A stretch of DNA of 64,000 nucleotides, taken from the NCBI GenBank assembly GCA_018340805.1, contig JACMZG010000008.1, positions 81,940,096-82,004,095 on the forward strand, read 5' to 3'. Positions 30,966 through 49,374 of this stretch are shown here, one piece after another. How positions within the stretch are numbered: position 1 is the first letter of the stretch; every line of letters starts with the position of its first letter. The notes under the pieces were generated by a model. It saw only the letters and a program-made list of their open reading frames with translations. It ran no database searches and was not told the DNA's origin. A program made the translations under genes and the position numbers. Source of the DNA: Microvelia longipes (Eukaryota > Arthropoda > Insecta > Hemiptera > Veliidae).

Positions 30966-31204
30966 TCAAACATGGTTTAATTTTAACCATGTTTAACATT
31001 ACTGTCAAAACAACTAATGTGTATGTAACTAATGTAATGACTTGTCTGTTAATTTGCATGGATTTATCACAATAAATGCACTTTCTATTAACATAGAGGT
31101 TGTACAAAACTATGATCGCCCTAGCACAATTTATATTGCAATGCATTTATTAATTAGCTTATTTTTATAATTAGCTTATAGTTAAATAGCTTATTTTATT
31201 CTAA

Positions 31205-31650
31205 TCTACGAAATGTTATAGGGCTTATAGTAGGAAAGGTTATAGGGCTTATAGCGGGAAATGTTATAGGGCTTATAGCGGGAAATGTTATAGGGCCTTT
31301 AGCAGGAAATGTTATAATGCTTGTAGCGGGAAATGTTGTAGAGTTTATAGCGGGAAATGTTATAGGGCTTTTAGCAGGAAATGTTACAATGCTTATAGCG
31401 GGAAATGTTATAGGGCTTATAGCGGTAAATGATATAGGGCTTATAGCGGTAAATATTATAGGGCTTATACCGGGAAATGTTATAGGGCTTATAGCGGTAA
31501 ATGTACCAGGGCTTATATCGGGAAATGTTATAGGGTTTATAGCGTTTATAGCGGAAATGTTTTAGGGCTTATAGCGGGAAATGTTAGGGCGGAAATGTTA
31601 TAGGGCTTTAGCAGGAAATGTTATAATGCTTGTAGCGGGAAATGTTATTC
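31205..31650. repeat. 24-bp minisatellite
   Basis: There are about 18 tandem units of 'atgttatagggcttatagcggga', about 24 bases each with minor variation. Because 24 is divisible by three, one frame (31317-31565) stays open and reads as GNVIGLIA octapeptides. I interpret this as a by-product of the period, not as a gene. Confidence 0.85.
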
Positions 31651-34842: not shown

Positions 34843-34957
34843 TATGCCATTCGGCTGAGAATGTCTTTATGTCTTGGCAATTTTTCCCGACTCGCTTCGC
34901 TCGTCGGTAAATCTAATTGCCGTGACATAAAGACACACTTCTCAGCCTTATGGCATA
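34843..34957. repeat. Palindrome with GCTTCGC centre
   Basis: The arms 'tatgccattcggctgaga' and 'tctcagccttatggcata' enclose further pairs ('gtctttatgtc' with 'gacataaagac', 'ggcaat' with 'attgcc', 'cgac' with 'gtcg'). The centre is CTCGCTTCGCTCG. It sits 18 bases from the gypsy insertion point. Confidence 0.75.
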
Positions 34958-34971
34958 AATAACTATTATTT

Positions 34972-34975
34972 GATC
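34972..34975. repeat. Target site duplication, left copy (GATC)
   Basis: GATC immediately precedes the left LTR and is repeated at 49371-49374 immediately after the right LTR. Four bases is within the usual 4-6 bp range for Ty3/gypsy integration. Confidence 0.75.
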
Positions 34976-35050
34976 TGACAACCATGGACTTGGTAAGCCA
35001 GGCTACAGCCTGATCAACTTGGCAGCACAATAGGCAACCACCTTAAGGGG

Positions 35051-35180
35051 TGATTCACAAAGGGTTGTTAGTGACGTCATTGTATACCTGGGGGGGGGGG
35101 ATGGAGTATAAGGGTATTATGACAAGGTATACGGTGACGTCACACATTAGTAAGGGGGTCAGTCATACCTTTGTGAATCA
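35051..35180 (+). promoter_or_regulatory. U3 enhancer-like block: two CREs between inverted repeats
   Basis: TGACGTCA occurs at 35072-35079 and 35135-35142. Both lie between a perfect 13-bp inverted repeat, TGATTCACAAAGG (35051-35063) and CCTTTGTGAATCA (35168-35180). An 11-base G run (35090-35100) lies in the middle. The same arrangement is in the right LTR. CREB/ATF-type factors bind TGACGTCA in animals; their use here is inferred. Confidence 0.65.
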
Positions 35181-35227
35181 TCCCTGGTGGGAGCTCGAGA
35201 GGCTTGATGGTGGGGGACGTCCAGGCC

Positions 35228-35266
35228 TATATAAGGAAGTGGGGACTAGGCCTCTGTGATCAGTCG
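35228..35266 (+). promoter_or_regulatory. LTR core promoter: TATA box and initiator
   Basis: TATATAAG at 35228-35235 is followed by TCAGTC at 35260-35265, an exact arthropod-type initiator. The putative start A at 35262 is 34 bases after the first T of the TATA box, close to the normal distance. Both are preserved in the right LTR. Confidence 0.7.
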
Positions 35267-35481
35267 TTGTTAAGACTGCCCACTAGGCAGCATTGGACGA
35301 TCCGCCAACCAAGGTGCTGGCTCGAGCTCCCAGGTTGTTGCATAACATGTCGTTGTTAATTTAAACAAATTACAGACTGTTATCTTCAGACCTATGGAGT
35401 AGTTTCTTTTCTCGGGCCTAATGGCCTACCCTCTTACTTAGGGCGGTATGGGTTTTTAACGCAGGGTTGGGTTTGAGCTTA

Positions 35482-35996
35482 GCTTTATCAGTGATCATGA
35501 TAAAGCCTCTTTTGGTCAGTCCTTCTGAGGGTTATCACCTCAGAACTTATTTAAGTCCCTAAAGCATTACTTGGAAGTCATCATTCCAAGCCTGGGATAA
35601 GGTTAAGCAAAGCCGTAGAAAAATCATCTACAGCTAGTGAAGGTATGGTAACTGGGACCCATTTAAGCTAGTTATTCCGGAGATCACGGATAACGTTAAG
35701 CATAGGGCAGGGGAGTCCTCGGGTTAGACTTGTTCTAACGCTGAGGCTTCCGACTTTGTACTACCGCCCGACCTCAACATCCTTCCGATCTGACAGGCTA
35801 TCACTGCCAGAGTCAAGCTTGTCTTGCAGAATATCACTGCAGATAGGGCGGGGCTCCTATATAGTACCTTACCTTTACGTTTTGAGCAATAACAGGTTAT
35901 CACTGTTATAAACTTATCCCAGCTTCCCAGTCAGACTACGGTCAGCATAGCCCAGTTGTTACCCAAAATAGCCGCAACACCGCTATCAGGTGTTGC
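35482..35996 (+). promoter_or_regulatory. Array of nine stem-loops with 7-nt NNNATCA loops
   Basis: The stem-loops are: 35482-35506 (9-bp stem, loop GTGATCA), 35523-35545 (8 bp, GTTATCA), 35570-35590 (7 bp, GTCATCA), 35611-35635 (8 pairs with one mismatch, AAAATCA), 35671-35694 (8 pairs with one bulge, GAGATCA), 35789-35811 (7 pairs with one mismatch, GCTATCA), 35824-35842 (5 bp plus G-T, AATATCA), 35889-35909 (7 bp, GTTATCA) and 35974-35996 (8 bp, GCTATCA). The stem sequences are unrelated, yet every loop is 7 nt and ends ATCA. One more stem (35723-35739) has loop CTTGT. The array lies downstream of the predicted start, so it should be in the RNA leader. Packaging, dimerisation, Gag binding or translation control are possible roles. 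Confidence 0.85.
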
Positions 35997-36095
35997 CACT
36001 CCACATTAGACTTGTAAGCTAACTTAGGCGTTTAAAGTGTTATTTACTAGTATTTAATTTGCGGCTTTGTCTCTTTTCCGCTTAATTAAAGAGTC

Positions 36096-36106
36096 TGGCG
36101 ACCGTG
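36096..36106 (+). other. PBS-like sequence inside U5
   Basis: TGGCGACCGTG is identical to the first 11 bases of the PBS at 36233-36243 and lies 137 bases upstream. It is also present in the right LTR. Confidence 0.7.
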
Positions 36107-36232
36107 TAATTTCAACTTTGACCCCGAGGCTGGATAAGTATGTGTCCCCCTTGGTGCAAGTCCGGTTAGGTAGATAGGTTTTTAGGTGAAGCATCGAGAT
36201 GATGCTCCGAGGCTGTACACCGGATGTCAAAA

Positions 36233-36250
36233 TGGCGACCGTGACAGGAC
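36233..36250 (+). other. Primer-binding site
   Basis: TGGCGACCGTGACAGGAC begins three bases (AAA) after the LTR end. It starts with the TGG complementary to the tRNA CCA end. An arginine tRNA ending in -GGTCG-CCA is a plausible primer, but I cannot check the tRNA set of this genome. Confidence 0.75.
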
Positions 36251-36578
36251 AGTCGTTAGTTTTTTCTGCATTTATATCTTTGGATACTAGTGAAGTTTAA
36301 TGTGCTCAGTTGTTAGTCTATTTTGTAGTTCCTGTGTTTTCCTTTTTATACTTAGTCCTAGGTTTGGGGGTATGGTTAGATTAGGTCTGTTTGTTTAACC
36401 TTAAGTCATTCAATTTTGGTTGAGCTATTTATTTGTGCTTAGTGCGCGTGTGAACTTTTGTTTATAGTGAACTTTAAATTTAATTTGATTATAGAAACCT
36501 GACTTTATTTATTATTTTAGACTCAATTAGTGTAGTGTTTAGTGTTAAACCGGTTAATATATTTGTGTTTTTTTTACG
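36251..36578 (+). other. Untranslated leader between PBS and gag
   Basis: AT-rich, with no long open frame and no further ATCA-loop hairpins. An almost identical reversed copy is at 44536-44880. Confidence 0.6.
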
Positions 36579-38273
36579 ATGTATTCTAAAAGATTGTGCG
36601 AACTTACAGTAGCGGAGATTAAGTATGAGTTAGGTAAGCGTGGTCTTTGTACTAAAGGAAGCGCTAGTGACCTAAGGATCCATTTAGAAGAAGTAATACG
36701 ATGCTCAGGGGTTGGCAATCCCTTAGATTACACCTTTTGGATCCCCACTGAGGATCAGTCTGGGTCGGATTTACCATTAGGTTCTCCCTTACTTGGTAAT
36801 TGGTTAGCGAACGTAGATCCTGCGGTAGGACCGGCACCGTTAGTTCCTTTACCTCAAGGCCCGAGTGTAGCTATAGATGAGGCTTTTAAGGACACATGGG
36901 AATTGCCATCTTGTTCTAGGAATGCATACGTATCGGTTCCGCCGTCAATCGAAAACCAAGGTACGAAAGAAATGTATAGGCCTCCGCCCGCAACTGAAAT
37001 CAACCAGACCACTGCTGCAGCGTCCTTATCGAATCCTTTCGCTGGATGCGAACCTTCACAGATAAGCCGTGAAGCAATGAATACAATTCCTGCAAGACAT
37101 TCAGTTGGACAACCGATTGTGACTTTTTATTCACCTCCAACTCATGAACCTTTGTCTCACCCGAGTCAAAACGTGTTGACAGAAAGAGTTTCAGATATAC
37201 CGTTAGTACGCCATCCTCATCAGATTTGCGACCCGCCTTCTATGCCAAGTAGAAGTAATGCGTATCTTCCGCGAGAAGAGGCCGCGCAACCGCGAAGTTC
37301 TCGTCCGTCTCCTCAGAATCCACCAGCCACGCCAGTAGTTAGCTGTATCGACATGGCTAACCTGATAGAAGCATTTATCCAACAGTCAAAGGAAAATCGT
37401 GCCCTGATACAAAGTTTTGTACAACGATTGGATGAGCCTAAACAGAAAGTGGATTGGGACCCAGCCTTGCTTGATTATGTAATGCTGCCGTTTGAAGGGA
37501 AGGTTTACGAGGACCCGGCCAAGGTGATCAGGAAATGGGAAACTGGCTTGCTAGAAAATAAGGTTCTTAAATCCTGTTGGGTTGAGGTTGCCCTTAAATA
37601 CGTCGGCAAAGAAGTGCTAGACGTTTGGCGCTCGCAATGTATACTTGATGCTACCTGGGAAGAGTTTGTCAATTTTATAAACTCCCGTTACTCAGCTCCT
37701 AGTGACGTGTCTCAGCTTAGAGCAAATTATCATGGCGTAAAACAAGGTGAAAATGACAACGTCGAGAGATTCCTAAGAGAGAAATACGCGATATTCAAAC
37801 GAATATACCCGTTAAACCAAGATTCTGATTTCATCGAAACGGTGACGGAATTAGTCGTGCCATACCTGCGTCAGCTTTTGCGTTTGAGAGAGCCTAAATC
37901 AGTAAACGACTTTATTGCAATGGCCCGTAGGCTTGAATCGGATCGGTGTGACCAGCCATCTACATCCTCTTCAACGAACCCCTTTGTGAGTCCAGTTACT
38001 CAACAGAAACCTGAGGTTAGGACATATAAACCACGTCCCGAGTATCAACCTGCTCCGCGATTTCAAAATAGGTCGTCGGGAGATAGGGGAAATAGTTCCA
38101 TGGATGGAACTCGGAGGAACGATAACTACCCTAATTCTAATAGATGGCGTGGCAATTACACTTCCAATCAGAGACCTCACGACACAACTGCCCGTCAAGA
38201 CACAAGAAGAGAAGCTCCAGCCACCAATAAGCCCCACTTACAACTTAAGCATTTAAACGATGCCCGGAGATGA
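36579..38273 (+). CDS. gag: Gag protein with N-terminal SAP domain (Ty3/gypsy)
   Basis: 564 codons, the first ATG after the leader. Residues about 7-40 (LTVAEIKYELGKRGLCTKGS and following) fit the SAP fold, a DNA/RNA-binding helix-turn-helix-like motif. Residues about 60-290 are Pro/Ser-rich and probably disordered. Residues about 293-455 form the retrotransposon capsid region, including FINSRYSAPSDVSQLRANYH and ENDNVERFLREKYAIFKRIY. The tail (456-564) is rich in R, G, N and Q, and I see no CCHC zinc knuckle, so the basic tail may serve as nucleocapsid. Gag assembles the particle and packages RNA. It ends at TGA 38271-38273, just overlapping the pol frame. The reversed copy has one A fewer at 38252-38258 and there gag runs straight into pol, so the terminus here may be an indel effect. 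Confidence 0.85.
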   Translation: MYSKRLCELTVAEIKYELGKRGLCTKGSASDLRIHLEEVIRCSGVGNPLDYTFWIPTEDQSGSDLPLGSPLLGNWLANVDPAVGPAPLVPLPQGPSVAIDEAFKDTWELPSCSRNAYVSVPPSIENQGTKEMYRPPPATEINQTTAAASLSNPFAGCEPSQISREAMNTIPARHSVGQPIVTFYSPPTHEPLSHPSQNVLTERVSDIPLVRHPHQICDPPSMPSRSNAYLPREEAAQPRSSRPSPQNPPATPVVSCIDMANLIEAFIQQSKENRALIQSFVQRLDEPKQKVDWDPALLDYVMLPFEGKVYEDPAKVIRKWETGLLENKVLKSCWVEVALKYVGKEVLDVWRSQCILDATWEEFVNFINSRYSAPSDVSQLRANYHGVKQGENDNVERFLREKYAIFKRIYPLNQDSDFIETVTELVVPYLRQLLRLREPKSVNDFIAMARRLESDRCDQPSTSSSTNPFVSPVTQQKPEVRTYKPRPEYQPAPRFQNRSSGDRGNSSMDGTRRNDNYPNSNRWRGNYTSNQRPHDTTARQDTRREAPATNKPHLQLKHLNDARR

Positions 38274-40118
38274 CACGAGTCCACGGCTAGCTTTTAGACT
38301 TAGCGATGGTAGTGAATTTATGGCGCTTATCGATACCCAAGCTTCTAGATCTTTTATAAGCGAAAAATTAGCCTCACACCCCGACGTTAAGGTCGTTTCA
38401 CGCATAGAAGGGAAGGTTAACTTTGGTGCTTTCACTACTAGTGGGAGATCAGAAGGACAGGCTACTTTTATTATTGATGTACAGGGCGCGAAAATATACG
38501 GTAGAGGCTGAAATCTTGAAGGATTCAGTTTACCCCTTTTGCTAGGAGAGACTTGGCTCCGCCAACATGCCGTAGTTGTCGACTACGGAAATTATACTTG
38601 CTCTATAGGTAAACGGGAACGCACAACGGTCAGTTGGCGTGCAGAACCTCAAGAGATAGTTGATCTTGCCATCCCCGAAGGAATTATCGACTCCAACCTG
38701 AACAACGAACAGCGCAAAGACGTTATTGAAGTCCTTCAGACTTATTCGCGCTGCTTCCAAGGGTTAGGCCGGACTAGATCCGTTTTACACAAGATTAAAT
38801 TAAGGGACGAGACTCCCCGTCGACAACATCCATACAAATATAATGATGAGAAGCGGGCTGAGATATGTAAGCAGGTTAGAGAGTTAGAGGCTGAAGGTTT
38901 AATCCAGCCCAGTGAATCTGCCTGGTCCAGTCCTGTGGTGCTAGTAAAGAAAAAGGACGGCGATTATCGACTGTGTGTCGACTACCGAAAATTAAACGAG
39001 GTAACAGAGGACGATGCCTACCCTATGCCTGATCTTCGAGAGCAACTGCATACGTTAGGTGAAGCGCGTTTCTTCACAAAGTTTGACCTTAAGTCCGGTT
39101 TTTGGCAAGTCGAGTTGGATCCGACATCTCGTCAGCTCACCGCTTTCTCTACTCCACTCGGATTGTATGAGTTCATAGTCATGCCTTTTGGGTTAAAAGG
39201 TAGCCCCAGTTCCTTTCAGAGACTCACCGAAAAGGTTCTTCGAGGTTATATAGGCAAATTTGCCAAAGTTTACCTGGACGATTTCGTCGTGTACAGCAAG
39301 ACTTAGGAAGAGCACCTGTACCACATAAGCCTAGTGCTGGAGAGACTAATCCAACATAATCTGACGTGCAAGATCTCGAAGTGCAGTATCGGCGCTCAGG
39401 AGATAGAATATCTGGGTCATATTATTTCCACAGAAGGGATAGCTACTCAGCCGGAAAAGCTTAAGGCCATAGCAGAGTTCCCGACCCCGCGAAACAAAAA
39501 AGGAATTCGCCAGTTTACGGGTCTCTGTCAGTGGTACGGCGAATTTGTGGATCATCTTGCAGACGTCGCGGCTCCACTCACCGATCTTACTAAGAATAAG
39601 ACGAGGTGGCGTTGGGGAGAAAGGGAAAACCAAGCTTTTCTAGCCCTTAAGGCTAGGCTGGCAGACGCTCCAAGTCTGGCCCACTACAATCCTAACTTAC
39701 CCCTAATTTTACAAACCGACGCGTCAGAAATTGGTTTAGGTGCAGTCCTTTTTCAGGAAACTGATAAAAAGCAGGTGTTAGGATTCGCGAGCAGAAAACT
39801 TAATGACGCCGAGACTCGGTACACGGCTTTTGAAAGGGAAGCTCTAGCTGTAATATGGGCCATAGGGAAGTATCGCCCAATGTTAGAGGGACGCAATTTC
39901 ATACTTATTACAGACAATAGTGCTCTGACGTGGATGACTAAAAATAAGGATGTTAATAGCAAGGTGCACAGATGGTTTCTGGCCCTTATGGGATATAAAT
40001 TCACCCTGCAGCATAGGCCAGGAGTTCTGAACCAAGCCGCTGACGCCCTGTCGAGGGACCCGATCGGGGAAGACGAACCTATGCTGGATATCGAAACCCC
40101 GCCTAGTCGTCATCTACC
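38260..40118 (+). pseudogene. pol: pol, left portion: protease, reverse transcriptase, RNase H (broken)
   Basis: Protease: ALIDTQASRSFI, with Gln where the catalytic D-T/S-G triad has Gly (in both arms). A one-base gain and a one-base loss (about 38487-38540) shift the frame between protease and RT. RT: LVKKKDGDYRLCVDYRKLN, FDLKSGFWQVELD, MPFGLKGSPSSFQR and the catalytic YLDD. An in-frame TAG at 39304-39306 interrupts just after VYSKT, and the same TAG is in the reversed arm. RNase H follows in frame with TDAS, the EREAL glutamate, TDNS and the AADALS aspartate, so its D-E-D-D set is complete. The native sequence stops at 40118, where it is joined to reversed integrase. The last stretch of the open frame (to 40266) is read-through into antisense sequence. 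Confidence 0.85.
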
Positions 40119-41229
40119 GTCTAAGTTGAAACAAGATCTCGGGAATATTTTCATCCCATCGGTTATGGTTTTCTCCGTCCAGCGCAATGCGGATTCCTTT
40201 TTTGATTTCTTGATTACGTCGCTCGGTTGGATTCGCCCGTGGTTGATATACCGCTGTGGTCCATAGTTCGCATCTCCACTCATTTACTACGGTGTCTGAC
40301 CACTCCTTCGACGAGAACTGGGGTCCATTATCGCTAAGTATAGCCTTAGGATAACTATAGCGAGAAAATACTTCTTTCTCCAAAGTCCTAATTATCTTTC
40401 CCGTAGTCGCTTTCGTCATGGGAAAAGCCTCAACCCAACGACTGTGAAGGTCGGTGTAAACTAATAAATTAGTTTTCCCCGATTTAGACCGAGGATAGGG
40501 ACCCATGAGGTCGATGGCTCCGACTTCCCACGTCTTCGTGGCTCTACGAGGAACCATAGGCGTTCGCGGTTGCCCGGTGAGCGGCTTGTTGGCCATACAG
40601 ATTTGGCAAGATTTCACATAACTTCTCACTGCGTTGGTCATTCTTGGCCAATAAACGCGTTTCCTTAAGGCGTTAATAGTCTCGTCGAACCCAGGGTGAC
40701 CTGCCAAACGGTGGTCATGGTATCTCTGTATTAGCTCTTCTCTCAAGTTAGACGGAGCATACAAACGAGGTCCACGGTCATCTCTATAATAGACGACATT
40801 ATTGATAAGCTGAAAATTATGTTTTTGCCTCAACCAGGCTCTCCTCTTCCGAACGTGCTTGGGAATTAACCCATCATTTAAGTAAGAAAATATCTTCTGA
40901 AGTTCTGGATCTTGATCCTGCTCAACGGCTGCGCGATCTAGAATATCGTCAGCTGCGTCACGAGTGGTACATAGACGTGTACCATCGGAAGGTAGATGAC
41001 GACTAGGCGGGGTTTCGATATCCAGCATAGGTTCGTCTTCCTCGATCGGGTCCCTCGACAGGGCGTCAGCGGCTTGGTTCAGAACTCCTGGCCTATGCTG
41101 CAGGGTGAATTTATATCCCATAAGGGCCAGAAACCATCTGTGCACCTTGCTATTAACATCCTTATTTTTAGTCATCCACGTCAGAGCACTATTGTCTGTA
41201 ATAAGTATGAAATTGCGTCCCTCTAACAT
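40119..41229 (-). pseudogene. pol: Integrase (with RNase H end), reversed copy, truncated
   Basis: An open frame of about 370 codons. It starts inside RNase H (TDNS, AADALS) and continues into integrase. The H2C2 zinc finger is H173-x4-H178 and C208-x2-C211 (counting from the M at 41229). The catalytic core has D240 in GAIDLMGPYP, D300 in LSDNGPQF and E336 in NPTERRNQ, a perfect D-D(35)-E spacing. It is cut at the 40118/40119 junction before the C-terminal domain. This copy keeps the frame that is broken in the forward integrase at about 45465. It has no start of its own and no promoter in this direction. Confidence 0.85.
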
Positions 41230-41804
41230 TGGGCGATACTTCCCTATGGCCCATATTACAGCTAGAGCTTACCTTTCAAAAGCCGTGTACCGAGTCTCGG
41301 CGTCATTAAGTTTTCTGCGCGCGAATCCTAACACCTGCTTTTTATCAGTTTCCTGAAAAAGGACTGCACCTAAACCAATTTCTGACGCGTCGGTTTGTAA
41401 AATTAGGGGTAAGTTAGGATTGTAGTGGGCCAGACTTGGAGCGTCTGCCAGCCTAGCCTTAAGGGCTAGAAAAGCTTGGTTTTCCCTTTCTCCCCAACGC
41501 CACCTCGTCTTATTCTTAGTAAGATCGGTGAGTGGAGCCGCGACGTCTGCAAGATGATCCACAAATTCGCCGTACCACTGACAGAGACCCGTAAACTGGC
41601 GAATTCCTTTTTTGTTTCGCGGGGTCGGGAACTCTGCTATGGCCTTAAGCTTTTCCGGCTGAGTAGCTATCCCTTCTGTGGAAATAATATGACCCAGATA
41701 TTCTATCTCCTGAGCGCCGATACTGCACTTCGAGATCTTGCACGTCAGATTATGTGTTGGATTAGTCTCTCCAGCACTAGGCTTATGTGGTACAGGTGCT
41801 CTTC
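41230..41804 (-). pseudogene. pol: RT connection and RNase H N-terminal part, reversed copy (broken)
   Basis: It contains the tether (FTGLCQWYG-type segment, LTDLTKNKTRWRWGERE) and TDASEIGLGAVLF. It is interrupted by a stop at 41269-41271 that arose by G-to-T relative to GAA in the forward arm. A two-base insertion near 41752 breaks the frame again. It also carries the shared TAG just before 41805. Confidence 0.8.
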
Positions 41805-43364
41805 CTAAGTCTTGCTGTACACGACGAAATCGTCCAGGTAAACTTTGGCAAATTTGCCTATATAACCTCGAAGAACCTTTTCGGTGAGTCTCTGAAAGGA
41901 ACTGGGGCTACCTTTTAACCCAAAAGGCATGACTATGAACTCATACAATCCGAGTGGAGTAGAGAAAGCGGTGAGCTGACGAGATGTCGGATCCAACTCG
42001 ACTTGCCAAAAACCGGACTTAAGGTCAAACTTTGTGAAGAAACGCGCTTCACCTAACGTATGCAGTTGCTCTCGAAGATCAGGCATAGGGTAGGCATCGT
42101 CCTCTGTTACCTCGTTTAATTTTCGGTAGTCGACACACAGTCGATAATCGCCGTCCTTTTTCTTTACTAGCACCACAGGACTGGACCAGGCAGATTCACT
42201 GGGCTGGATTAAACCTTCAGCCTCTAACTCTCTAACCTGCTTACATATCTCAGCCCGCTTCTCATCATTATATTTGTATGGATGTTGTCGACGGGGAGTC
42301 TCGTCCCTTAATTTAATCTTGTGTAAAACGGATCTAGTCCGGCCTAACCCTTGGAAGCAGCGCGAATAAGTCTGAAGGACTTCAATAACGTCTTTGCGCT
42401 GTTCGTTGTTCAGGTTGGAGTCGATAATTCCTTCGGGGATGGCAAGATCAACTATCTCTTGAGGTTCTGCACGCCAACTGACCGTTGTGCGTTCCCGTTT
42501 ACCTATAGAGCAAGTATAATTTCCGTAGTCGACAACTACGGCATGTTGGCGGAGCCAAGTCTCTCCTAGCAAAAGGGGGTAAACTGAATCCTTCAAGATT
42601 TCAGCCTCTACCGTATATTTTCGCCCCTGTACATCAATAATAAAAGTAGCCTGTCCTTCTGATCTCCCACTAGTAGTGAAAGCACCAAAGTTAACCTTCC
42701 CTTCTATGCGTGAAACGACCTTAACGTCGGGGTGTGAGGCTAATTTTTCGCTTATAAAAGATCTAGAAGCTTGGGTATCGATAAGCGCCATAAATTCACT
42801 ACCATCGCTAAGTCTAAAAGCTAGCCGTGGACTCGTGTCATCTCCGGGCATCGTTAAATGCTTAAGTTGTAAGTGGGGCTTATTGGTGGCTGGAGCTTCT
42901 CTTCTTGTGTCTTGACGGGCAGTTGTGTCGTGAGGTCTCTGATTGGAAGTGTAATTGCCACGCCATCTATTAGAATTAGGGTAGTTATCGTTCCTCCGAG
43001 TTCCATCCATGGAACTATTTCCCCTATCTCCCGACGACCTATTTTGAAATCGCGGAGCAGGTTGATACTCGGGACGTGGTTTATATGTCCTAACCTCAGG
43101 TTTCTGTTGAGTAACTGGACTCACAAAGGGGTTCGTTGAAGAGGATGTAGATGGCTGGTCACACCGATCCGATTCAAGCCTACGGGCCATTGCAATAAAG
43201 TCGTTTACTGATTTAGGCTCTCTCAAACGCAAAAGCTGACGCAGGTATGGCACGACTAATTCCGTCACCGTTTCGATGAAATCAGAATCTTGGTTTAACG
43301 GGTATATTCGTTTGAATATCGCGTATTTCTCTCTTAGGAATCTCTCGACGTTGTCATTTTTCAC
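41805..43364 (-). pseudogene. pol: Gag tail, protease and RT in one frame, reversed copy
   Basis: 519 codons. The Gag C-terminal region passes without a break into the protease (DTQA at the active site) and on through RT to YLDD at residues 509-512. It stops at the same TAG as the forward arm. This continuous frame suggests that the parental element encoded a Gag-Pol fusion without a frameshift, or that an A has been lost here. The ATG at the start is internal to gag and is created by a one-base run-length change (five A instead of four at about 43357-43364). Confidence 0.8.
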
Positions 43365-44535
43365 CTTGTTTTACGCCATGATAATTTGCTCTAAGCTGAG
43401 ACACGTCACTAGGAGCTGAGTAACGGGAGTTTATAAAATTGACAAACTCTTCCCAGGTAGCATCAAGTATACATTGCGAGCGCCAAACGTCTAGCACTTC
43501 TTTGCCGACGTATTTAAGGGCAACCTCAACCCAACAGGATTTAAGAACCTTATTTTCTAGCAAGCCAGTTTCCCATTTCCTGATCACCTTGGCCGGGTCC
43601 TCGTAAACCTTCCCTTCAAACGGCAGCATTACATAATCAAGCAAGGCTGGGTCCCAATCCACTTTCTGTTTAGGCTCATCCAATCGTTGTACAAAACTTT
43701 GTATCAGGGCACGATTTTCCTTTGACTGTTGGATAAATGCTTCTATCAGGTTAGCCATGTCGATACAGCTAACTACTGGCGTGGCTGGTGGATTCTGAGG
43801 AGACGGACGAGAACTTCGCGGTTGCGCGGCCTCTTCTCGCGGAAGATACGCATTACTTCTACTTGGCATAGAAGGCGGGTCGCAAATCTGATGAGGATGG
43901 CGTACTAACGGTATATCTGAAACTCTTTCTGTCAACACGTTTTGACTCGGGTGAGACAAAGGTTCATGAGTTGGAGGTGAATAAAAAGTCACAATCGGTT
44001 GTCCAACTGAATGTCTTGCAGGAATTGTATTCATTGCTTCACGGCTTATCTGTGAAGGTTCGCATCCAGCGAAAGGATTCGATAAGGACGCTGCAGCAGT
44101 GGTCTGGTTGATTTCAGTTGCGGGCGGAGGCCTATACATTTCTTTCGTACCTTGGTTTTCGATTGACGGCGGAACCGATACGTATGCATTCCTAGAACAA
44201 GATGGCAATTCCCATGTGTCCTTAAAAGCCTCATCTATAGCTACACTCGGGCCTTGAGGTAAAGGAACTAACGGTGCCGGTCCACCTACCGCAGGATCTA
44301 CGTTCGCTAACCAATTACCAAGTAAGGGAGAACCTAATGGTAAATCCGACCCAGACTGATCCTCAGTGGGGATCCAAAAGGTGTAATCTAAGGGATTGCC
44401 AACCCCTGAGCATCGTATTACTTCTTCTAAATGGATCCTTAGGTCACTAGCGCTTCCTTTAGTACAAAGACCACGCTTACCTAACTCATACTTAATCTCC
44501 GCTACTGTAAGTTCGCACAATCTTTTAGAATACAT
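43354..44535 (-). pseudogene. gag: Gag, reversed copy, frameshifted
   Basis: 393 codons, nearly identical to residues 1-391 of the forward Gag, with the same SAP domain and capsid start. It has one extra glycine codon (VGGPAP versus VGPAP). It ends early because of the extra A in the run near 43360. The leader behind its ATG (44536-44880) is the reverse of the forward leader. Confidence 0.85.
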
Positions 44536-44883
44536 CGTAAAAAAAACACAAATATATTAACCGGTTTAACACTAAACACTACACTAATTGAGTCTAAAAT
44601 AATAAATAAAGTCAGGTTTCTATAATCAAATTAAATTTAAAGTTCACTATAAACAAAAGTTCACACGCGCACTAAGCACAAATAAATAGCTCAACCAAAA
44701 TTGAATGACTTAAGGTTAAACAAACAGACCTAATCTAACCATACCCCCAAACCTAGGACTAAGTATAAAAAGGAAAACACAGGAACTACAAAATAGACTA
44801 ACAACTGAGCACATTAAACTTCACTAGTATCCAAAGATATAAATGCAGAAAAAACTAACGACTGTCCTGTCACGGTCGCCATT

Positions 44884-46229
44884 ATGCTGGATATCGAAAC
44901 CCCGCCTAGTCGTCATCTACCTTCCGATGGTACACGTCTATGTACCACTCGTGACGCAGCTGACGATATTCTAGATCGCGCAGCCGTTGAGCAGGATCAA
45001 GATCCAGAACTTCAGAAGATATTTTCTTACTTAAATGATGGGTTAATTCCCAAGCACGTTCGGAAGAGGAGAGCCTGGTTGAGGCAAAAACATAATTTTC
45101 AGCTTATCAATAATGTCGTCTATTATAGAGATGACCGTGGACCTCGTTTGTATGCTCCGTCTAACTTGAGAGAAGAGCTAATACAGAGATACCATGACCA
45201 CCGTTTGGCAGGTCACCCTGGGTTCGACGAGACTATTAACGCCTTAAGGAAACGCGTTTATTGGCCAAGAATGACCAACGCAGTGAGAAGTTATGTGAAA
45301 TCTTGCCAAATCTGTATGGCCAACAAGCCGCTCACCGGGCAACCGCGAACGCCTATGGTTCCTCGTAGAGCCACGAAGACGTGGGAAGTCGGAGCCATCG
45401 ACCTCATGGGTCCCTATCCTCGGTCTAAATCGGGGAAAACTAATTTATTAGTTTACACCGACCTCACAGTCGTTGGGTTGAGGCTTTTCCCATGACGAAA
45501 GCGACTACGGGAAAGATAATTAGGACTTTGGAGAAAGAAGTATTTTCTCGCTATGGTTATCCTAAGGCTATACTTAGCGATAATGGACCCCAGTTCTCGT
45601 CGAAGGAGTGGTCAGACACCGTAGTAAATGAGTGGAGATGCGAACTATGGACCACAGCGGTATATCAACCACGGGCGAATCCAACCGAGCGACGTAATCA
45701 AGAAATCAAAAAAGGAATCCGCATTGCGCTGGACGGAGAAAACCATAACCGATGGGATGAAAATATTCCCGAGATCTTGTTTCAACTTAGACAAAGGCAG
45801 AACGTTAATTTAGGGACTTCACCTGCTAACGTTATGTTAGGGCGACCGCTGACGCAGCCAGGAGATTGGTCCAAAGTTCTGAACCCTGTTAGTGAAACAC
45901 CAGAGAATAACAAGTCAAACGATGACTCAAGTACTGCACAAACTGTTTCGGAGGATGCCACCAATCGTGCGTCACAGGGTTCAACCAGTAAAGAAGGTAA
46001 CCAAGAGACTCAAGTTCCTTCTTATCAGCCAGGAGAGAAGGTGATGATCAAAAACCACGCTCAGTCTGATAAGATACGTGGAATACACGCAGGTTTCGCT
46101 CCCAAATACAAGGGGCCGTACACCATTCTTCGAAGAGCAGGCAGATACGTCTACATCGTTGGCCTTGGCAGAGGTCGTACTGCCAAACTTAACCAAGATG
46201 ATCTTAAGCGCTATGTACCAAGAGCATAG
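44884..46229 (+). pseudogene. pol: Integrase, forward copy (one frameshift)
   Basis: Forward pol resumes at the codon for MLDIETPP, repeating 40081-40118. The first part (to about 45470) holds the zinc finger HDHRLAGH...CQIC and the first catalytic Asp (GAIDLMGPYP). A missing T after VYTDL shifts the frame. The second part (45492-46229) holds LSDNGPQF, NPTERRNQEIKKG and the C-terminal module with the GPY-type motif YKGPYTILRR. There is no chromodomain. The reversed copy keeps the T, so the shift is a late mutation or a sequencing error. The stop at 46227-46229 ends pol. Confidence 0.85.
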
Positions 46230-46770: not shown

Positions 46771-47800
46771 ATGGTTAAGAAGACTCCTGATTTTCATTCC
46801 TCATTTGAGAAGGCTCAGCAAGCTTACAATAGAATCGCTGCTGCCCGACGAACGGCGATCCTGATTCCAAGGATGCAGGATCCCCTGATGTTGCAGAGCG
46901 GGTCGACCCGGAGGAGGAGGACAGCGGAGGAGGCGGTCGAGAGTCGACCACTGCCAGCTCCCATGGAGATGAGACCGGCGATTGAGTGGTCTGCTCCTCG
47001 ACCGCTGACTCTGAGTCCTCGTCCATCGGTCACGGCCCGTTCTGGCTTAAACAGGGATCCTCGCCTGTATAGGAGTAGGGATCCCCGTTTGGTAGGCAGA
47101 AGGGATCCTAGGGTAAGCTTCAAGAGGGTAGCGCCATCACGCCCATTAATTTCCAATTTAACTGTGAACCCTGTGGGCTCGGGTCCCAGCACCGCGGTGA
47201 AGCGGACCGTAATTTTAAGTTGGGGATTTCAAAAGAAAATTTAAAAAAAATGGACCCCTTGTAAGGGACTGGACGTCCCAGACTTATAATAAAAACTGGA
47301 AGAGGGTCATCGGAAAATCTATGTTGGTCAAGGACAGGGACGTCTCAGGACCCCGAATAAGCTCCATCATCAAAGAGGGAAACGTCACCCACCGTAATGC
47401 CCAAACAGAAAAGGCCCTGTGGGAGGAGGCGTCGTATCTTAAGCTAATTAAAGACCTTGAAGCTCGCCCACACAGACCTGAAGGGCCCTTCGTGATTACA
47501 GTAGGAGGTGGGGGGCCAGCATTGCATGGCCCGTCAAGAGGGCGGAGCGATGGGCCTCCTGCATTGAACTTTAAGTTACCAACTCCGGCGTGTGGATTCA
47601 GTATGCCGCTGCTCGAGGAAAACCCTACGCATAGTGGAGTCCATCGTCCACCCGCGGCTTCCCCAGGAGCAGAGGACCCTTTAGCGGAGCTAGAGATTCT
47701 ACTCGGCGAGGGCAGCACCACGAGATCAAAGAAGAAACTCTCACCCATTAGGGAGGAAGACCTGCAAGCTCTCGAGGACATGCTCAATGCCGATAGTTAG
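46771..47800 (+). pseudogene. Third reading frame downstream of pol, function unknown (one frameshift)
   Basis: It starts ATG at 46771 (MVKKTPDFHSSFEKAQQAYN). The first part, to 47244, is basic and Pro/Ser-rich with three RDPR(L/V) repeats (NRDPRLYRSRDPRLVGRRDP). The frame then shifts by one near the GGGG run at 47221-47225. The new frame is open from about 47219 through the M at 47321 to a stop at 47798-47800, so the two parts very likely form one protein of about 343 residues. The second part has GPFVITVGGGGPALHGP and an acidic end (EEDLQALEDML). No signal peptide, membrane segment or envelope-like feature is visible, so it is probably an internal basic/acidic accessory protein. I do not recognise it. 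It is a pseudogene call only because of the shift, which may be a sequencing error. Confidence 0.6.
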
Positions 47801-48106: not shown

Positions 48107-48177
48107 AAAGAAAGTGGGGTATATTGACAACCATGGACTTGGTAAGCCAGGCTACAGCCTGATCAACTTGGCAGCAC
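48074..48177 (+). promoter_or_regulatory. Long stem-loop spanning PPT and start of U3
   Basis: GTGCTGCCAAG (48074-48084) pairs perfectly with CTTGGCAGCAC (48167-48177). Inside it, GTAGCCTGGCTTA (48095-48107) pairs perfectly with TAAGCCAGGCTAC (48143-48155). The terminal loop exposes the polypurine tract and the LTR edge. The left arms exist only beside the 3' LTR. Confidence 0.7.
48107..48119 (+). other. Polypurine tract
   Basis: AAAGAAAGTGGGG lies five bases before the 3' LTR. It is the expected plus-strand primer position. One T interrupts the purine run. Confidence 0.7.
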
Positions 48178-49370
48178 AATAGGCAACCACCTTAAGGGGT
48201 GATTCACAAAGGGTTGTTAGTGACGTCATTGTATACCTGGGGGGGGGGGATGGAGTATAAGGGTATTATGACAAGGTATACGGTGACGTCACACATTAGT
48301 AAGGGGGTCAGTCATACCTTTGTGAATCATCCCTGGTGGGAGCTCGAGAGGCTTGATGGTGGGGGACGTCCAGGCCTATATAAGGAAGTGGGGACTAGGC
48401 TCTGTGATCAGTCGTTGTTAAGACTGCCCACTAGCAGCATTGGGACGATCCGCCAACCAAGGTTGGCTCGAGCTCCCAGGTTGTTGCATAAATGTCGTTG
48501 TTAATTTAAAACAATTACAGACTGTTATCTTTCAGACCTATGGAGTAGTTTCTTTTCTCGGGCCTAATGCCTACCCTCTTACTTAGGGCGGTATGGGTTT
48601 TTAACGCAGGGTTGGGTTTGAGCTTAGCTTTATCAGTGATCATGATAAAGCCTCTTTTGGTCAGTCCTTCTGAGGGTTATCACCTCAGAACTTATTTAAG
48701 TCCCTAAAGCATTTACTTGGAAGTCATCATTCCAAAGCCTGGGATAAGGTTAAGCAAAGCCGTAGAAAAATCATCTACAGCTAGTGAAGGTATGGTAACT
48801 GGGACCATTTTAAGCTAGTTATTCCGGAGATCACGGATAACGTTAAGCATAGGGCAGGGGAGTCTCGGGTTAGACTTGTTCTAACGCTGAGGCTTCGACT
48901 TTGTACTACCCGCCCGACCTCAACATCCTTCCGATCTGACAGGCTATCACTGCCAGAGTCAAGCTTGTCTTGCAGAATATCACTGCAGATAGGGCGGGGC
49001 TCCTATATAGTACCTTACCTTTACGTTTTGAGCATAACAGGTTATCACTGTTATAAACTTATCCCAGCTCCCAGTCAGCTACGGTCAGCATAGCCCAGTT
49101 GTTACCCAAAATAGCCGCAACACCGCATCAGGTGTTGCCACTCCACATTAGACTTGTAAGCTAACTTAGGCGTTTAAAGTGTTATTTACTAGTATTTAAT
49201 TTGCGGCTTTGTCTCTTTTCCGCTTAATTAAAGAGTCTGGCGACCGTGTAATTTCAACTTTGACCCCGAGGCTGGATAAGTATGTGTCCCCTTGGTGCAA
49301 GTCCGGTAGGTAGATAGGTTTTTAGGTGAAGCATCGAGATGATGACTCCGAGGGCTGTACACGGATGTCA
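48125..49370 (+). repeat. 3' long terminal repeat
   Basis: Near-identical to 34976-36229. The CREs, TATA box, initiator, hairpin array (48627-49138, with one loop shortened to GCATCA) and U5 PBS-like copy are all present. Confidence 0.92.
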
Positions 49371-49374
49371 GATC
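49371..49374. repeat. Target site duplication, right copy (GATC)
   Basis: It matches 34972-34975. Confidence 0.75.

Follow-up and report, generated by a model that had tools for sequence, protein, structure and literature searches.

The 5' long terminal repeat (LTR) of a retroelement in the genome of Microvelia longipes carries a row of nine hairpins with closely similar loops, and the question raised by this locus is what such a row might be for and what might read it. Little is known of how LTR retrotransposons select their own RNA. The reading preferred here, to which a probability of about one half is given on the evidence of sequence comparison, is that the RNA of the element would be recognized multivalently by its own Gag through the hairpin array in the R region.

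The window (the whole stretch of 64,000 nucleotides that was analysed) holds one inserted Ty3/gypsy-type element, from 5' LTR to 3' LTR (Table 1), and the LTRs, primer binding site (PBS), PR-RT-RH-IN order and target-site duplication, all of them present, place it in Ty3/gypsy (Metaviridae). Differences between the two LTRs are almost all small indels, and the PBS is one that we take to be that of tRNA-Arg. The gag-pol region gives matches to reverse transcriptase, RNase H and integrase, and 3' of pol lies a third ORF region with an interrupted frame, in two pieces (46771-47241, Arg-rich, and 47321-47797). Judging from the positions of the TATA box, the TCAGT initiator-like site and the ATTAAA signal, the array is probably transcribed and lies within R; the TATA-to-TCAGT spacing (31-32 nt) is the same in the leaders of three relatives (L080, L082 and L085, of family II below).

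Table 1. Positions of the element, its signals and its nine hairpins in the window
Feature	Position	Strand	Remarks
5' target-site duplication GATC	34972-34975		identical GATC at 49371-49374
5' LTR (TGACAACC...GGATGTCA)	34976-36229	+	97.9% to 48125-49370
TATA box (35228) and TCAGT initiator-like site (35260), putative transcription start	35228-35264	+	
Hairpin 1, loop GTGATCA	35482-35506	+	9 bp perfect stem, -10.4 kcal/mol
Hairpin 2, loop GTTATCA	35523-35545	+	8 bp, -12.0 kcal/mol
Hairpin 3, loop GTCATCA	35570-35590	+	7 bp, -8.0 kcal/mol
Hairpin 4, loop AAAATCA	35612-35634	+	one C.A mismatch
Hairpin 5, loop GAGATCA	35671-35694	+	one bulged T
Hairpin 6, loop GCTATCA	35789-35811	+	one A.C mismatch; weakest predicted in-context pairing, 0.12
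Hairpin 7, loop AATATCA	35818-35847	+	bulged T four pairs below loop
Hairpin 8, loop GTTATCA	35889-35909	+	7 bp
Hairpin 9, loop GCTATCA	35974-35996	+	8 bp, -13.6 kcal/mol
ATTAAA, putative end of R	36085-36090	+	sole AATAAA/ATTAAA within 34976-36260
PBS TGGCGACCGTGACAGGAC	36233-36250	+	kept in 18 of 20 upstream loci of relatives when one mismatch is allowed, exact in 17
gag	36579-38273	+	N-terminal SAP-like module 36579-36758; no CCHC seen
3' LTR	48125-49370	+	second array copy at 48627-49138, unit 9 with 6-nt loop

Other features of the window are recorded here in their own right. The interior of the element (36228-44886) reads forward-inverted-forward, the inverted copy (40119-44886) starting at the LTR/PBS border and stopping in integrase; it may have arisen by rearrangement in the course of reverse transcription, may belong to a second element, or may be an artefact of assembly or reads. 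An inverted repeat around GGTGATTCACAAAGG / CCTTTGTGAATCATCC in U3 (35049-35186) resembles a small inserted palindrome, and a 24-bp tandem repeat array is found at 31138-31646. The start of the PBS (CTGGCGACCGTG, at most one mismatch) is duplicated at 36095-36106, directly 3' of the poly(A) signal. This second copy is present in 17 of the 18 PBS-keeping loci of the L076-L095 set (L077-L088 and L091-L095, being absent from L076), mostly ~90-175 nt upstream of the PBS and ~2 kb upstream in L079, L081 and L083; if inside R, it would stand at both RNA ends, and it recalls the Ty3 PBS, which is split between both genome ends (PMC4974528).

The nine hairpins occupy 35482-35996 and have 7-nt loops of the form RNNAUCA on mostly unrelated stems. 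A preliminary description of this DNA had reported them, with the same positions and loops and an interval of about 35-120 bases; all nine were recovered, and their loop-to-loop spacing is 33-117 nt. Nine of the ten occurrences of ATCA in the region fall inside the nine loops, the tenth lying in stem 1, and the first loop base is constrained as well (seven G, two A). Perfect stems of at least 5 bp with a loop NNNATCA number 7 in 35441-36060, as against a mean of 0.004 and a maximum of 1 in 2000 dinucleotide shuffles, so that the proposed check against shuffled sequence speaks against chance. When the test was relaxed to loops of 4-11 nt and to whatever 4-mer the loops have in common at one set position, the count was 7 against a maximum of 2 in 3000 shuffles. 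The constant loop length and constant ATCA half that had been claimed are borne out; other loop lengths occur at background level except for 9 and 11 nt, where the excess consists mostly of the same hairpins with closing pairs opened.

Aligned with each other (alignment A2), the nine units pair in 87.5% of 72 cells, compared with 47.4% in shuffles, none of 500 being as high; two-sided changes occupy 32 cells versus 10.9, and the covariation score is 1.10 versus 0.27, again unequalled in 500 shuffles, while the count of pair positions showing at least one two-sided change, 8, is unremarkable (84 of 500 shuffles). The statement that the stems "differ completely yet pair" is upheld as to pairing and goes slightly too far as to complete difference, units 6-8 having an apical CAG/CTG in common. 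Two further checks that had been suggested, a folding of the leader and a covariance model, agree with this result: the leader is predicted to fold more stably than shuffled versions of it (z -3.95, 20 shuffles), with moderate to high predicted closing-pair probability in context (0.60 to 0.98) for eight of the nine stems, unit 6 being the exception, and a model built from the nine units (R1) has 18 matches in the window at E of at most 10, 17 of them falling in the LTR arrays (all nine units of the 5' copy and eight of the nine in the 3' copy, where unit 9 lacks one loop T). The array thus has several stem-loops, a common loop motif and unconstrained stems, as multi-copy packaging signals do.

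Some more familiar identities were considered for the hairpins. The iron-responsive element is a hexaloop CAGUGN with a C bulge, and the present loops, of 7 nt and of the form GNN followed by a word, are not of that type; Rfam gave just three snoRNA matches for 34900-36300, all far below gathering score. Loop 1 (35491-35497) contains a 6-nt palindrome, TGATCA, capable of forming a kissing dimer. It is not conserved, copies L029 and L030 reading GTTATCA, and kissing loops were rejected as a general mechanism as only loop 1 holds such a palindrome. Four copies of TGAT, the complement of ATCA, are present in 35257-36232, and hairpin 1 accounts for two of these, in its loop and its stem. GATA sites were also set aside: the minus strand gives TGATAA or TGATAG at some loops, yet the pairing would go unexplained.

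A search of the same assembly (664.6 Mb, 1470 contigs) for the array region gave 15 matches, of which two are the window's own LTRs and three are pieces of one locus. Across the 12 loci that were aligned, including the 3' LTR, the hairpins are largely kept. Compensatory changes, another suggested check, are seen in some copies (U-A to C-G in unit 1 of L037; A-U to G-C in L032 and G-C to A-U in L036, both in unit 5), and the C.A mismatch of unit 4 is T-A in the divergent copy L039; divergent copies also contain disrupted units, among them unit 1 of L039, unit 5 of L030 and unit 6 of L036, as should happen when copies decay. Substitutions counted over 11 copies (the 3' LTR copy L028 being omitted as nearly identical) affect 29/178 free loop bases (NNN), 19/252 ATCA bases, 100/921 stem bases and 254/2269 spacer bases. 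The word therefore changes less than the free loop bases (p 0.005), the comparison of word with spacers is not significant (p 0.09), and stems are not slower than spacers (p 0.80).

This last figure is what would be expected of an origin by mutation only, in which template switching perfects palindromes that have no function; such a process would also yield perfect pairing with no G.U intermediates, and G.U is rare in family I, the family of the window. It would explain neither the fixed loop length, other lengths being at background, nor the fixed word, and it does not account for the recurrence of arrays with different words in several families (see below). This explanation is considered very improbable.

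Relatives were sought with the Gag protein, which has 95 matches in the genome, the window's own included. Stretches upstream of 31 gags (20 + 11) were taken and arrays were sought in them unsupervised, as hairpins with a common 4-mer at a fixed loop place, followed by word-by-word listing. The PBS TGGCGACCGTGACAGGAC is kept in 27 of the 31 stretches, and arrays of about 4-20 hairpins lie upstream of it. The word is not invariant across relatives, a supposition that was dropped, and changes with the family: AUCA in family I; GNNAUCA with some GNNACCA in family II (L079-L083, L085); GNNACCA in family III (L086-L088, L102); GNNGUUC in families IV (L093, L095) and IVb (L097-L099, L101, L104, L105); and GNNGCCC, in weaker arrays, in family V (L091, L094, L103). 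Twelve of the 27 PBS-keeping loci have arrays with at least five distinct stems (six in II, four in III, two in IV); the others are the six of IVb, with 4-6 GUUC units each, the three of V, two with partial arrays (L092 and L076, the latter a decayed family I copy) and four with none. In 150 block-shuffled loci the best shared-word count is 3, compared with 7-10 distinct stems in the real arrays of I-III and 5 in IV.

Among the 62 units folded from the five family representatives, 60 begin the loop with G. In L080 (family II), 16 of 19 ATCA occur as GNNAUCA units and four of nine ACCA as GNNACCA units, and six of the 16 AUCA units have one bulged base (five U, one A) exactly four pairs below the loop. 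The array is ~2 kb further upstream in L079, L081 and L083, in which U5 is interrupted. In L086 (family III) 15 of 22 ACCA are GNNACCA units, with no ATCA unit. Covariation in III and II exceeds all 500 shuffles, with pairing of 90.0% in III and, in an alignment of only 9 unbulged units with paired closing, 94.4% in II. Families IV and IVb have few distinct stems as a result of tandem repeats; L093 (IV) has 16 of 21 GTTC as GNNGUUC units, with five distinct stems, in 135-bp tandem repeats. In L094 (V) six of 13 GCCC pass, several others having an unpaired C.A just under the loop, and seven distinct GCCC stems are found (next word, 2) if 7- or 9-nt registers are admitted, as against one distinct unit when the register is restricted to 7 nt. 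The GCCC array of L092 is weak (4 against 3 for the next word).

Family VI (L077, L078, L084) keeps the PBS and has no heptaloop array upstream of it. In its place stand 84-bp tandem repeats (9.9, 3.3 and 3.9 copies, respectively, L084 being cut by the contig start), each made of two related halves of ~41 nt. In L077 the repeats adopt other folds; a replacement of the hairpin signal by these repeats is possible. L106 has a PBS and no array, and is uninformative since R appears to be missing from its sequence. Seven loci upstream of distant Gags have neither the TGGCGACCGTGACAGGAC PBS nor an array, and their LTRs may lie outside the stretch. No array is present either in 26 remotely related gypsy loci from prokaryote assemblies, which probably represent contigs of eukaryotic DNA and form a weak control, leaders probably being missing in most. 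Scans of IMG/VR for the reverse transcriptase or for one hairpin gave no match, and a search of the protein database with the window Gag gave no close relative at E 0.001. The preliminary description had taken the array for the signature of a repeated recognition element, and had linked it by hypothesis to an unusual mode of packaging. The shuffles, the covariance model and the recurrence of the architecture in related families (II, III, IV and IVb, more weakly V) support that view, and the arrayless family VI, in part the kind of related element that the description had named as a refutation, and the stems that evolve like spacers weigh against it. A SAP-Gag clade that combines this PBS with an array upstream of it is defined here.

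The array families share, besides the PBS, an N-terminal SAP-like module; the pattern M.SK.L..[LM]T..[ED]...EL.KR.L...G...D..IRLE, or one close to it, is common to I-VI and L092. The SAP domain ascribed to Gag is weak in the window's own Gag (14.7 bits, E 0.024, below the Pfam cut-off of 23.9) and clear in its IVb relative (33.3 bits, E 3.6e-8), with values just below cut-off in II, III and IV (21.1-22.3 bits) and a lower one in V (16.0 bits). An AlphaFold model of the first 70 residues, made without an alignment, had a pLDDT of 47.8 and was discarded. The tail of Gag is rich in Arg and Asn. The preliminary description had noted the lack of a zinc knuckle in Gag, and a scan in three frames, starting at the capsid match and extending to 900 nt beyond it or to the locus end, likewise revealed no CCHC in any of 30 gag loci, of which three belong to the window's element; the array accordingly differs from retroviral psi, for which a zinc-knuckle nucleocapsid is the reader.

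The distribution of the loop words agrees with a tree of Gag capsids. This tree has 30 rows, including two for the inverted copy in the window, and its midpoint root serves drawing only. A split with 100/100 support separates families III (ACCA), I and II (A[UC]CA) and VI (none) from IV and IVb (GUUC) and V and L092 (GCCC). Support is good for most family clades but not for the branching order among IV, V and IVb, and the program flags long branches; rows L062, L063, L069 and L074 have no upstream stretch with a PBS, and the leader of L070 is outside the set. Words are shared by descent, so that the changes rest on few branches and a small number of events, and family II carries both AUCA and ACCA. 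Since all families inhabit the same host cells and the word is nevertheless family-specific and follows Gag, the comparison suggests an element-encoded reader, most likely Gag.

The same comparison bears on a host RNA-binding protein, for example of the Nova KH type, that would read the loops and steer polyadenylation, splicing or export. Nova-type KH sites are UCAY, presented in loops, and family I units resemble them in that, in eight of nine cases, the closing-pair base that comes after AUCA is Y; the putative R ends near the poly(A) signal, and a host reader would account for arrays on all transcripts. It would have to be several proteins, however, as the words of a single host (AUCA, ACCA, GUUC, GCCC) differ between families and track the Gag tree, and GUUC and GCCC are not UCAY. 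A host reader is on balance unlikely.

As active form, the preliminary description had named RNA or single-stranded DNA. Isolated non-Watson-Crick cells between Watson-Crick neighbours were counted on the plus strand in one representative per family, giving 16 G.U, 5 A.C and 5 others over five families (binomial p 0.027 for 16 vs 5) and 16 G.U vs 3 A.C in II-V alone (p 0.004). Because isolated G.U outnumber A.C over the families, plus-strand RNA is favoured. Family I alone points in the opposite direction (0 G.U vs 2 A.C), and a minus-strand reading favoured from the window alone was dropped once the relatives were counted. In that reading, the SAP module, a type of domain best known for binding DNA, would attach to hairpins of minus-strand strong-stop cDNA at the strand-transfer step. 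The two isolated A.C pairs of the window would be wobbles on the minus strand, and the window stems are almost purely Watson-Crick (70 WC, 1 GU); with the 16 to 5 count over families set against it, this form of the signal is decidedly improbable.

The array might instead be an element of export, stability or translation, of the RRE, RcRE or CTE type, read by the third-ORF protein or by export factors. The third ORF region has no Pfam match in either piece, and its first piece no homologue in the protein database (E 0.001); a Rev-like role is possible; the leader contains 13 upstream ATGs; and response elements do exist in LTRs, the HERV-K RcRE overlapping U3 (PMC11379458; PMC6916052). RcRE, RTE and CTE are likewise structured RNA in or near LTRs, but their folds are complex, with multiple stem-loops (PMC11379458; PMC6916052), and nothing in the available text of PMC11379458 resembles a series of equal hairpins that share one word. 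A role of this kind is accordingly rated as rather doubtful.

If Gag is the reader, as preferred here, the array would act as a multivalent cis-acting RNA recognition element that, by its place in R, stands at both RNA ends. Each unit would be a stem of free sequence, needing only to pair, that presents the heptaloop G-N-N-[family word], with a probable closing contact between its first and last bases (G1.A7 or G1-C7). The word would be read by an element-encoded protein, for which Gag is the best candidate on account of its SAP-like module, its Arg/Asn-rich tail and the zinc knuckle not seen in it, and many weak contacts per RNA would allow Gag to select, condense and assemble on its own RNA. 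Identical repeats are known from retroviruses to be prone to loss during reverse transcription, and the stems would diverge for this reason, as is expected if pairing alone matters. A location in R fits roles that need both ends (capture, end pairing, strand transfer); it would also mark all transcripts, spliced ones included, which is neutral or slightly adverse for a pure packaging function. Evidence against the Gag reading comes from family VI, which lies in the Gag clade of I and II and is arrayless, from stems that change as fast as spacers, and from the usual association of SAP with DNA. A wider proposal, put forward tentatively, is a clade-wide, evolving loop code in which Gag would match the four-letter word and the RNAs of the families would be kept apart in one genome: family-specific words would stop co-resident families from packaging one another's RNA, and word and reader would co-evolve (AUCA, mixed AUCA/ACCA, ACCA; GUUC, GCCC).

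Several families in one genome thus offer matched sets of a putative Gag and a putative signal with differing words, which makes specificity accessible to simple binding assays. If confirmed, the system would be a case of retroelement RNA being recognized without a zinc knuckle and would illustrate in detail how the specificity of RNA and protein co-evolves, and the series of words would lend itself naturally to the study of shifts in such specificity. The covariance-model signature can be used to find such arrays in other genomes.

Among known systems, retroviral psi consists of 1-4 hairpins with GACG or GGAG loops, usually downstream of the PBS, that are read by the zinc knuckles of Gag; the present array is similar in being made of stem-loops near the RNA 5' end, but has about 4-20 of them, upstream of the PBS, and no zinc knuckle is seen. 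Iron-responsive elements and the MS2 operator also combine a constant loop with a free stem, and the bulge four pairs below the loop in six of the 16 family II AUCA units has its counterpart in them, but their loops have another length and sequence, their copies are single or few, and their readers are unrelated. In the PMC literature covered (including PMC3362945 and PMC3601003; subscription papers and repeat databases fall outside this scope), neither an LTR hairpin array nor a SAP-Gag gypsy clade is described, and LTR hairpin arrays are provisionally regarded as new. Fungal GalEa retrotransposons, likewise LTR elements, carry a Conserved Hairpin Site close to their 5' LTR, but this is a single hairpin with a conserved stem and a looser loop, in an element with no PBS, the reverse of what is found here, where a PBS is present (PMC5445492). 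Ty1 and Ty3 RNA is chosen by Gag, which in Ty1 likewise has no zinc finger; according to a review the packaging sequences are imprecisely defined, and its available text mentions no hairpin array (PMC4974528). There is a likeness, too, to the packaging signals of single-stranded RNA viruses and of HBV, in which many stem-loops with a short common loop motif are read by the capsid protein, as with the dispersed stem-loops of parechovirus (GxUxUxxU; PMC5431903) and the RGAG loops of HBV (PMC7612645). Those signals are spread along the genome, and their discovery came from SELEX with the protein, whereas the hairpins described here are concentrated in the LTR, have a fixed loop length, and carry a word that differs between families within one host.
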